From Chthonomonas calidirosea (GTDB lineage: Bacteria; Armatimonadota; Chthonomonadetes; Chthonomonadales; CAJBBX01): a stretch of DNA of 64,000 nucleotides. A program made the position numbers and the translations under genes. The stretch spans positions 8,425 to 72,424 of the forward strand of contig DYKI01000008.1 in NCBI GenBank assembly GCA_020722705.1, in the 5' to 3' direction. Under the pieces are notes generated by a model, which saw only the letters and a list, made by a program, of their open reading frames with translations, was not told where the DNA came from and searched no databases. Every line of letters begins with the position of its first letter. Position 1 is the first letter of the stretch. Positions 44,438 through 51,644 of this stretch are shown here, piece by piece.

Positions 44438-47166
<2,729 letters not shown>

Positions 47167-49074: not shown

Positions 49075-49365
49075 GCGGGTTCGGCTGCCAGACACTGCCG
49101 TGAGCGTGGGCGCAATCGGCTGCTGCCGCCGGGCCGGCCTGGCGAAACCGCCTTGGCCACAGCTTCGGCATGGGTCGCCCGATCCGCATCTGCCATCGGC
49201 CCGGTGAACTCCTTCTCCAAGAGACGACGCGGAAGGTCCGCGCCCCGTGCGCTGCCGGCGGTGTGCCCTGTGCCAACCGACGCGAGCAAAAAAAGCCGAA
49301 AAGATACGGATGTCTACTTGACTTGGGGGGGGGTGATGTATTATGAGGGAAAGGAGGGTACACCG
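49075..49365. other. Noncoding gap with A-tract and promoter
   Basis: This 291-bp gap contains no credible gene. Its right end has an AAAAAAA tract (near 49288), the -35/-10 pair at 49318-49344 with a nine-G run in the spacer, and an AGGAGG ribosome-binding site for the small peptide gene. The left 200 bp show nothing recognisable. Confidence 0.6.
49318..49344 (+). promoter_or_regulatory. Promoter with nine-G tract in the spacer (possibly phase-variable)
   Basis: TTGACT (49318-49323) and TATTAT (49339-49344) are separated by only 15 bp, of which nine are consecutive G residues (49325-49333). Slipped-strand change of this tract by one or two bases would bring the spacing to the optimal 16-17. 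The hexamers are 5/6 matches to the consensus each. Confidence 0.5.
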
Positions 49366-49458
49366 ATGTCAGCAACACGTTTCCACCGGTTGGGTGTTCT
49401 CGTAGCGGTTACGGTGCTCGGTACAGCTTCGGCGCTGCCAACAGGGTTGATGGACTGA
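49366..49458 (+). CDS. 30-residue leader-like peptide
   Basis: A short open frame with a strong ribosome-binding site (AAGGAGGG, eight bases upstream). The product is MSATRFHRLGVLVAVTVLGT, then ASALPTGLMD. It has a basic start, a hydrophobic core and an ASA cleavage motif, and would release only about six residues. It stands between a distinctive promoter and the membrane-protein gene 53 bp downstream. It could be an exported peptide, a regulatory leader peptide, or a gene truncated by a stop. No family was recognised. Confidence 0.5.
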   Translation: MSATRFHRLGVLVAVTVLGTASALPTGLMD

Positions 49459-49511
49459 CCTCCGGCGCGTCGTTGGGAAGTGCAGATTCCGCATGGAGAG
49501 GTGGTGCACCG

Positions 49512-50216
49512 ATGAGAGAGAACAGACGTCAGGCCACCGCAGAAGCAAATGCGCGGCGCACAAGAGTGCTCAGATGGCGTTTGTCGGCCGTCGGAGTTCT
49601 CGTCGTACTGGCCGGCCTGGGCATTTGGCACCATCTGAGCTCTCGCCTGCCGTGTGATCCCGGGCTGAAGCGGTTCCGAGCCGCACTGGAGCGCCGGGAC
49701 TTCGATGACCTGTATGCCATGACGACGGATATCGAAAAGCAGCAGCTCGGCGTCACGAAGGCCATGGTTGAACGGGCGTTTCGGGAGACGGTATTCGGGC
49801 TCGCTCCCCGTGTCCGCACCCGCTTCGCCAGGATTGACACGCCGGCTCAGGTGACCGACCGCTGGGCATGGCGCACGCTCGCCATCCTTGACGCCAGGAC
49901 CGGGCGCTCCTTGCCGACGTTCCATCCCAGCGGCGAGTACATCTGCGTGGTTCGATTGTACAAGCAGAAGGACGGGGAGTGGCACGTTGTTATGGCCGAC
50001 GTCGTGCGCGGAATGCTCGCAGTGAATCACTATCGGCGCACAGTTGGCGACTACGACAGCCCTGCAGGCATCAAGCGGCGCAGAGAGATATCACGCACGG
50101 TACTGGGTTGGGGCTTTCGGGGAACACTTACGGAGCCGGAGTCAATGCAGGTCGCCGGCCAGTGGATTACGACAGGCGAGCCGCCCTTGCGTCTGTACAA
50201 GCTTGTAGGCCGATAA
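49512..50216 (+). CDS. Membrane-anchored protein of unknown function
   Basis: A 234-residue protein. The N-terminus is basic (MRENRRQATAEANARRTRVL) and followed by one membrane anchor (LSAVGVLVVLAGLGIWHHL). The extracytoplasmic part of about 180 residues resembles the NTF2/SnoaL-like pattern: KRFRAALERRDFDDLYAMTT, GEYICVVRLYKQKDGEWHVV and then RRTVGDYDSPAGIKRRREIS. No catalytic motif is seen. The gene follows the 30-residue peptide gene and precedes the pseudopilin, suggesting a common unit. The start is ATG 49512 by AGAGGTG upstream; the frame opens at 49473. Confidence 0.65.
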   Translation: MRENRRQATAEANARRTRVLRWRLSAVGVLVVLAGLGIWHHLSSRLPCDPGLKRFRAALERRDFDDLYAMTTDIEKQQLGVTKAMVERAFRETVFGLAPRVRTRFARIDTPAQVTDRWAWRTLAILDARTGRSLPTFHPSGEYICVVRLYKQKDGEWHVVMADVVRGMLAVNHYRRTVGDYDSPAGIKRRREISRTVLGWGFRGTLTEPESMQVAGQWITTGEPPLRLYKLVGR

Positions 50217-50377
50217 CCATACAACACTGGAGCATCGCCGAGACGGCGGACCGCCACCGGCTCGGAATCAGTCGGGCCTGGGCAGCGCCGACGGCACTCT
50301 GCCGGAGCGGTCGGCACCTGAGCGGAGGCGTCCGGGAGAAGCCTGAAGCGGGTCCATATGCCAGAAGGGGGATCGCA

Positions 50378-50971
50378 ATGTGGCCTCGGTCGAAGCGCAT
50401 GAGGTGTCCCGGGATGACGTTGGTGGAAGTGCTCGTGGTGGCGGCCATCCTCGGAGTGCTGGCCGCGTTGGTGATGACGGTGATGGGCCGGCTGCGCGAG
50501 GGAGCTCGGAGGACTGTCTGCCTCAGCAATCTCCACCAGATTCACCGTGCCTTGATGATGTACTCGCACGACTACGGCGGCGTGGACCCGGTCGTCGGTG
50601 GCCCGGTGTTAAGCTACTCGGACTTTGGCCTGCCGCCCTCCGAGGAGCGTTTCGGTGACGTGGACTTCCTGCCGATGTATCTGCCTGACCGGGCGGTATG
50701 GCGCTGTCCCAACGACACGCGGCCTAATCCGCCCTACAGACGTTCCTATTCGTTTTGCTGGTGCGATGACGAGAAGATGCCGCTTGGCGACCCCAACGGG
50801 CGTCCGGTCGGCGAGATCGCCTCCATCTGCGGCGACCGTCTGGCCCTGTTCCTCTGCGTAGATCATGGCTTCGGCGTCTACGAAGACAGCACGCTCGCCA
50901 TCGTCTTGCGGTGGAACGGCCAGGTGAAGGCGGAGTATCAACACATGCCGTTCCGCACCTGCTATGACTGA
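50378..50971 (+). CDS. Type II/IV pseudopilin-like protein
   Basis: A 197-residue prepilin-type protein. The N-terminal methylation motif is CPGMTLVEVLVVAAILGVLA, with cleavage expected after Gly before MTLVEV and the conserved Glu at +5. The next helix (RTVCLSNLHQIHRALMMYSH) and LPMYLPDRAVWRCPNDTRPN belong to the DUF1559/G-type pseudopilins common in Armatimonadota and Planctomycetota. It lacks the H-X9-DG tail of the second pseudopilin at 57153. GAAGGGGGATC precedes ATG 50378. Its last eight bases overlap the start of the thioredoxin-fold gene. Confidence 0.85.
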   Translation: MWPRSKRMRCPGMTLVEVLVVAAILGVLAALVMTVMGRLREGARRTVCLSNLHQIHRALMMYSHDYGGVDPVVGGPVLSYSDFGLPPSEERFGDVDFLPMYLPDRAVWRCPNDTRPNPPYRRSYSFCWCDDEKMPLGDPNGRPVGEIASICGDRLALFLCVDHGFGVYEDSTLAIVLRWNGQVKAEYQHMPFRTCYD

Positions 50972-51644
50972 CGCGGCCTCTGACCCCGAGGCAGAGCCCG
51001 AACAGGGCCCTTCGGGCAACGAAACAGCGCGGTCTTCAACCCACCGGGTGCGGCCCATGTTTGCGGTCGCCCTGGCAACCCTGTTGTCCGCGTATGTGGT
51101 CGTGGCGGTGGCCAACTGGAACGCAACCGGAATGTCGCCGGTGCGGCGCATGAGCGACGGCATTGCCGGGATGCGGCTGGCCGTCTGGAAATGGCGGTCA
51201 TCTCTCCGGGACCCGTCACCGGGCACAAGGCTCCCCACGCCGGGCAGTGTGCCGGACGCCGCGAAGACCGGTGCCGTTGACGTCGTCGTGTTCGCTGACG
51301 CAACGCCATCCTGCTGTGGCGGCAAAGCCGCCGGCGCTGCCAGCACGGTGGAACAGATGGCGCGAGAGAATGCAGGCCTCCGGAAAGTGAAATGGATCCT
51401 CGTCGTGGGTGGGTCCGAGGAAGCCTCGCAGGGTGAACCCGCGAGCGATTCGCCCCGGCTCTACTCGGCAGTGCGGGACAGAAGCGGAGCCCTTGCCAAA
51501 CGCTACAACTCCTACTTCACCCCGCGAACCTATATCCTGCGGGACGGAGCGCTCATGTGGGCGCAACCCTCACCCTCGGCCGACGACCTGATGCCGGTCA
51601 ACACGATTCTGGAGAATCTCAAGCGTGCCGTTGCGGGCCCGTGA
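50964..51644 (+). CDS. Membrane-anchored thioredoxin-fold protein with a vicinal Cys pair
   Basis: A 226-residue protein. After an acidic N-terminal tail comes a membrane anchor (MFAVALATLLSAYVVVAVAN), then at about 95-225 a redoxin/TlpA-like domain. Its first strand and active-site loop read VDVVVFADATPSCCGGKAAG, then LRKVKWILVVGGSEEAS, and the late motif RYNSYFTPRTYILRDGALMW supplies the cis-Pro (TPR). The active site therefore has adjacent cysteines (SCCG) where CxxC is expected. It overlaps the pseudopilin gene by eight bases, so the two are translated together; a redox role for exported partner proteins is inferred. Confidence 0.72.
   Translation: MTDAASDPEAEPEQGPSGNETARSSTHRVRPMFAVALATLLSAYVVVAVANWNATGMSPVRRMSDGIAGMRLAVWKWRSSLRDPSPGTRLPTPGSVPDAAKTGAVDVVVFADATPSCCGGKAAGAASTVEQMARENAGLRKVKWILVVGGSEEASQGEPASDSPRLYSAVRDRSGALAKRYNSYFTPRTYILRDGALMWAQPSPSADDLMPVNTILENLKRAVAGP

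Follow-up and report, generated by a model that had tools for sequence, protein, structure and literature searches.

The question raised by this locus is whether four consecutive reading frames in a 64,000-nucleotide stretch of a Chthonomonas calidirosea genome (the window), specifying a 30-residue peptide, a membrane protein (TM), a pseudopilin (PIL) and a thioredoxin-like protein (TRX), belong together as a small envelope system, as an earlier note on this DNA had proposed, and, if so, what such a system may do. The locus carries one copy of a cassette of four Armatimonadota genes, namely TRX, PIL, TM and a gene for a secreted cysteine-rich protein (CYS), and the shortest of the four frames is probably what is left of a CYS gene.

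The cluster in the window

All four open reading frames listed in the earlier note are exact in their coordinates (Table 1), and the strong ribosome-binding site claimed for the 30-residue peptide (GGAGG) and the claimed overlap of the fourth gene with the pseudopilin gene (8 nt) are both found in the sequence. Third-position GC in the TM, PIL and TRX frames (0.73, 0.82, and 0.76, respectively, versus 0.83-0.85 in flanking genes) fits coding sequence. The draft genome spans 4.57 Mb at 99.4% completeness and 5.8% contamination, and neither tRNA genes nor RNA families at gathering scores are found in the window. The genes flanking the cluster are unrelated to the cassette: the six that were searched are a nucleoside hydrolase, a SASA esterase, GH4, KatG, Fur and one unmatched, and no assembly ATPase, platform or secretin gene was identified among these six. 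At 44438-47166, katG follows the Fur-family gene closely on one strand, the two forming a familiar peroxide-response pair.

Table 1. Features of the cassette copy in the window
Feature	Position	Strand	Description
Promoter-like element	49318..49344	+	TTGACT 49318-49323; 15-nt spacer with G9 at 49325-49333; TATTAT 49339-49344
Ribosome-binding site of the 30-residue frame	49353..49357	+	GGAGG
30-residue frame	49366..49458	+	Predicted signal peptide and about 7 residues; probable truncated CYS gene
TM	49512..50216	+	234 aa; single-pass membrane protein, modelled NTF2-like extracytoplasmic domain; ATG start, TTG at 49473 possible
PIL	50378..50971	+	197 aa; pseudopilin, prepilin N-terminus, DUF1559-like start
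TRX	50964..51644	+	226 aa; membrane-anchored, AhpC/TSA-Redoxin-type, CC instead of CxxC; 8-nt overlap with PIL

A cassette that recurs in Armatimonadota

Searches of 61 genomes with both the TRX and the TM proteins revealed a second copy of the two in the same genome, on contig C130, as well as copies elsewhere. The C130 copy (L011) is intact, with the gene order TRX-CYS-TM-PIL. Profiles built from relatives were searched against 291 genomes of the phylum Armatimonadota, and 86 loci were annotated, chosen from strong TM matches (40 plus 35) and TRX matches (5) in addition to the starting loci. Gene clusters that combine PIL with one or more partners number 80, in 54 genomes, 34 of which have a cluster with at least three cassette parts. 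The usual order is TRX, PIL, CYS, TM: with genes grouped per strand, the profiles give TRX-PIL-CYS-TM in 15 of the 80 clusters, PIL-CYS-TM in 14, TRX-PIL-TM in 9, PIL-TM in 26 and other orders in 16, TRX being found by profile in 35 clusters altogether. Across the 291 genomes, TRX profile matches occur in 119 and CYS profile matches in 27 (32 matches), while the TM profile matches 60 genomes in its 6-row version and 166 in its 39-row version, totals that are not cassette counts, as ordinary NTF2-like proteins may be among the weaker TM matches. A scan of genome contigs with two narrow TRX motifs gave five loci, three of them from Chthonomonadales, Chthonomonadaceae or Chthonomonas, and the same cassette sequences occur in genomes of the window's own order and family. 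No TM was found on plasmids.

The linkage between TM and PIL is especially tight, and with it the proposal of an envelope gene set holds, the set being recurrent and the neighbours kept: for 80 of the 91 TM-profile matches examined, a cassette pilin lies at most 1.6 kb away on the same strand, and only 6 cassette pilins are found outside cassettes in 705.6 kb. Since the rows of alignment A5 omitted selected loci (L012, and the pilin-less or too partial matches L056, L058, L066, L067, L070, L078, L080, L081, and L085), held-out counts are reported separately; here 37 of 39 TM genes adjoin a cassette pilin, both misses being at contig ends, with TRX beside 8 of the 39 and CYS, by profile, beside 10. 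In the first batch of 52 TM matches, PIL is beside 43, TRX beside 22 and CYS beside 31. Six CYS matches fall at previously unseen places, five between PIL and TM (three of these with TRX upstream), and one with the pilin as its sole cassette neighbour. TM starts in the alignments were chosen by rule, and control gene calls are simple ORF picks, made without a trained gene finder. Orthologues of the genes in the window are thus clearly neighbours elsewhere, and the gene content, order and strand of the cassette, its domain identities and the architecture of CYS are observed features. The earlier remark that no described system has this content also agrees with the open-licence literature searched, in which no description of a TRX-PIL-CYS-TM cassette was found.

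The cassette proteins and the state of the window copy

PIL is the one securely identified part of the cassette, a type IV filament protein. Its assignment as a pseudopilin is secured by a match to Pfam N_methyl (PF07963; 28.1 bits versus a cut-off of 21.2, E 1.4e-06). The window PIL also scores 23.2 bits versus a cut-off of 23.3 (E 8.3e-05) against DUF1559 (PF07596), with only residues 39-67 matched, and nine of ten PIL relatives match this family at E<=0.1. One prepilin peptidase and six secretin matches are encoded in the genome on contigs other than that of the window, so the general machinery would be available in trans.

TRX begins with a membrane segment, followed by a domain of AhpC-TSA/Redoxin type. 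The thioredoxin fold earlier ascribed to it has its support at the level of the family, with 8 of 17 members matching AhpC-TSA and 9 of 17 matching Redoxin at E<=0.1, but the window protein taken alone matches no Pfam or NCBIfam model and owes the label thioredoxin-like to the matches of its family members. The CxxC motif is present in 24 of 37 cassette TRX matches and absent from 13, at least some of which are partial matches. In the window TRX, as in its paralogue in L011 and in L047 and L123, this active site of the thiol-disulfide oxidoreductases is replaced by a vicinal Cys-Cys. At two loci the TRX gene is split across two reading frames: L122 (G015:C1, 4494-5140, minus strand) and L131 (5816-6411), where a G10 run starts one of the frames.

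By modelling, TM is an NTF2-like domain protein anchored in the membrane. The model of a TM relative (pLDDT 86) has one membrane helix followed by an NTF2-like domain, and aligns with 4r1k (Z 8.9, rmsd 3.4, 117 aligned) and with the MecA-type N-domains of PBP2a/PBP3 (Z 8.2-8.5). No Pfam family was matched among 39 TM members, and Foldseek with the TM model returned nothing at E<=0.001, its best match (E 6.2e-3) being to another protein class.

CYS, as represented by the cassette relatives, is secreted, measures about 90-157 residues and contains 8-17 cysteines, three alignment columns being Cys in 31 of 31 rows. Among these 31 members there is no convincing match to Pfam, with four stray single matches (E 0.011-0.095) and nothing convincing for the methylamine dehydrogenase light chain, nor is there a convincing match to NCBIfam. 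The model of CYS, a signal helix and then three long strands, is weak (pLDDT 73), and a fold search with it matched nothing. By a fixed rule (a signal-like start, then at least 8 Cys), a secreted Cys-rich frame is found in 53 of 80 cassettes versus 0 of 108 control stretches. Where the gap between PIL and TM has no CYS profile match (40 cases), it measures 280-513 bp, the size of a CYS-type gene, in 27 and less than 180 bp in 13. As the strict rule fails in 27 of the 80 cassettes and some of the PIL-TM gaps are too small, CYS may be dispensable.

As judged by eye, the 30-residue peptide of the window starts with basic residues and continues with a hydrophobic core and an ASA|L-like end, followed by about seven more residues and a stop. 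Its frame lies directly upstream of TM, which is the CYS slot in most cassettes, including the intact L011. Given this signal-peptide form, this position and similar decay in the sister genome G001, the frame is probably a truncated CYS gene, 30 residues being too short to prove homology; inspection of 49459-49511 by eye, in all three frames, revealed no trace of CYS. The leader-like peptide of the earlier note is not borne out, as relatives have a complete Cys-rich secreted protein in the same slot, and a leader-peptide or attenuator reading was rejected in favor of the truncated gene. We consider it very unlikely that the frame specifies a real leader or signalling peptide: the strong GGAGG and the promoter-like element would suit one, but the signal-peptide form and the CYS slot argue otherwise, as does the decay of other copies in the genus, one of which (L012) lacks CYS and part of TRX, while another (L013) is a PIL-TRX fusion.

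The gene order of the window cluster is permuted. The order CYS*-TM-PIL-TRX in the window, the asterisk marking the 30-residue frame, is a cyclic permutation of the order TRX-CYS-TM-PIL of L011, as would be expected from tandem duplication and partial loss. The sister genome G001 presents further arrangements. In L012 (G001:C295, 6771-8300), TM and PIL are intact, TRX has an internal deletion and CYS is absent. L013 (G001:C85, 7875-8162, minus strand), with the N-terminus of PIL fused in frame to the C-terminus of TRX behind a promoter-like stretch, is a deletion remnant of a window-type cassette. In L057 (G001:C322, 3974-7190, minus strand), two PIL and two CYS genes surround one TM.

With nothing past the signal peptide, the CYS gene of the window probably yields no cargo, and, with CYS lost and CxxC missing, a working product from this copy is doubtful. 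The copy may even be a decaying pseudo-operon with no present function, a reading that the loss of CYS, the TRX without CxxC and the ruined copies of the sister genome would support, but which we hold to be somewhat unlikely, as three frames are intact with coding-like third-position GC, and as the intact L011 likewise has CC for CxxC. The C130 copy is the better subject.

Possible roles and known systems

We tentatively favor, with slightly less than even confidence, a dedicated unit for the oxidative folding and the pilin-borne export or display of a disulfide-rich protein, of which the window holds a rearranged copy with CYS deleted. Redox processing after export, proposed earlier, would fit a redox protein whose gene neighbours those of a Cys-rich secreted protein and of a pilin. 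We infer the interactions among the cassette proteins and the export route as follows. CYS, with its signal peptide and 8-17 cysteines, would leave via Sec; the membrane-anchored TRX would form or shuffle its disulfides, and the membrane-anchored NTF2-like TM would hold or chaperone it; the prepilin peptidase of the genome would cut PIL, which would join a type IV filament or a T2SS-like pseudopilus; and this structure would carry CYS out or display it. Against such a unit stand the presence of TRX in only 35 of 80 clusters and next to just 8 of the 39 TM genes held out, the lack of CxxC in the window TRX, the 27 of 80 cassettes in which CYS is missing by the strict rule, and the weak CYS model with no fold match; TRX may instead act on PIL or on general targets.

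If TRX acts on PIL, the cassette could be a pilus-maturation module, with TRX oxidising the PIL cysteines, CYS a minor structural or tip part, and the window copy working without it. This would agree with the two cysteine columns of PIL, one being Cys in 74 of 82 members and the other in 52 of 86, which the window PIL retains, with the intact frames of the window PIL, TM and TRX, and with the cassettes that have PIL and TM but no space for CYS. It is improbable in our view, as CYS has many more cysteines than PIL and no extra gene is commoner, and as TRX is often missing where PIL and TM persist.

Another alternative to the folding and export unit draws on divergence. In 195 cassette pairs with PIL identity of at least 35%, mean identity is 40% for PIL, 30% for CYS, 26% for TM and 27% for TRX. 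The faster divergence of CYS and TM than of PIL, the presence of several divergent copies in one genome, such as the four of G006, and the decay of copies within a genus would all suit a polymorphic competition cassette, with CYS as a secreted disulfide-rich antibacterial, TM as its membrane-anchored immunity protein, TRX as the folding enzyme and PIL as the exporter. We regard this as unlikely: none of seven proteins matches the PADLOC models of known phage-defence systems, a library that covers phage defence and not bacteriocins, the window TM is intact though CYS is lost, an NTF2-like fold is no immunity signature, and a private pilin per cassette would be unusual for a bacteriocin.

Beyond folding and export, poly-G/C runs at the window and at other cassettes suggest, with moderate strength and as a lead, phase variation. 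The G9 run in the window is the only G/C run of at least 7 in the 64 kb, the genome having 11 distinct runs of at least 9 (18 overlapping matches), and it lies in a promoter spacer, a homopolymer run there or in early codons being the mark of a phase-variable locus. The sequence TTGACNNNGGGGGGG occurs only once in the genome, at this promoter-like element, where a consensus promoter scan is empty because it requires a spacer of 16-18 nt and the spacer here is 15 nt. A related element precedes a decayed copy in G001; L057 has C9 in the same promoter-spacer position, L097 has C8 near TTGACA, and in L130 and L121 the run lies within the first codons of TRX or its frame. Runs of at least 8 within 250 bp upstream are found for 8 of 77 cassettes versus 0 of 267 control genes (Fisher 4.7e-6); with promoter-bearing intergenic gaps as the control, the figures are 5 of 51 versus 5 of 167 (p=0.056), both comparisons being post hoc, made on a lead already spotted. 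A broader extrapolation, which we find rather doubtful, is that of a phase-variable surface system of Armatimonadota in which each cassette would make a different disulfide-knotted protein, fold it with its own TRX, hold it by the NTF2-like membrane protein TM and present or release it on its own pseudopilin, poly-G/C runs in the promoter or the first codons switching expression.

Two observations concern other sites. No regulatory motif is claimed around TACNTCCGTCTACCTTG, as 16 rows match it with at most 5 mismatches versus 13 for the reversed pattern, the window appearing twice in each; the exact sequence occurs once in the genome, on C27 before secretin-like genes, and with 3 mismatches before the cassette L052. 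Also on C27, L153 (G000:C27, 1518-8505) holds three pairs in tandem, each with a small secreted protein and a larger one that is, by eye, like secretin N-domains, and the promoter of one pair (TTGTCC, a 17-nt spacer with G9, TAGAAT) resembles that of the window.

Pseudopilin genes with no known use can number in the dozens in an Armatimonadota genome. The available parts of the Fimbriimonas genome paper give 79 PulG-like pseudopilin genes and 13 AhpC/TSA proteins for that genome, and such a cassette is unmentioned in those parts (PMC4072686). The cassette links one class of pseudopilins to named partners, two of them in unannotated families, and to a possible cargo, so what a pseudopilin does beyond the classical machines can be tested directly. 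The cassette is also a compact model for surface proteins that depend on disulfides, in a phylum that has hardly been studied, and, should either surface display or competition prove to be its role, it would be a new kind of system.

Individual parts of the cassette resemble parts of known systems. TRX is like StoA/ResA in combining a membrane anchor with an AhpC-TSA/TlpA-like domain, and 2 of 17 TRX members match StoA, but so weakly (best 0.0013) that membership does not follow; in addition, the window TRX lacks CxxC. The TM model is like the N-termini of PBP2a/PBP3 (NTF2-like/MecA N-terminal domain), with a membrane helix and then an NTF2-like domain, but TM has no transpeptidase, and no Pfam match to such a family is found in 39 members. 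One system of similar logic is the methylamine dehydrogenase light chain with MauD/MauE, in which a small, Cys-rich secreted protein has a membrane-anchored, thioredoxin-like partner dedicated to it. The cassette shares this pairing, but TM has one membrane helix and not a MauE-type bundle, the cassette includes a pilin, and CYS has no convincing Pfam match. Another such system is sublancin, a disulfide-containing secreted product whose gene adjoins that of a thiol-disulfide oxidoreductase of its own, BdbB. The cassette likewise places a gene for a disulfide-type secreted product beside an oxidoreductase-type gene, but no ABC exporter is identified in the window cluster, the Cys-rich protein is larger, and a pilin and an NTF2-like partner are present. 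Finally, PIL shares the class III prepilin N-terminus with the pseudopilins of type IV filaments and of the T2SS (PF07963, DUF1559-type), the latter system having been reported in Armatimonadetes (PMC6668835). The cassette differs from these machines in that no ATPase, platform or secretin gene is identified beside the window cluster, and in that each cassette has a pilin of its own, in the company of CYS, TM and TRX.
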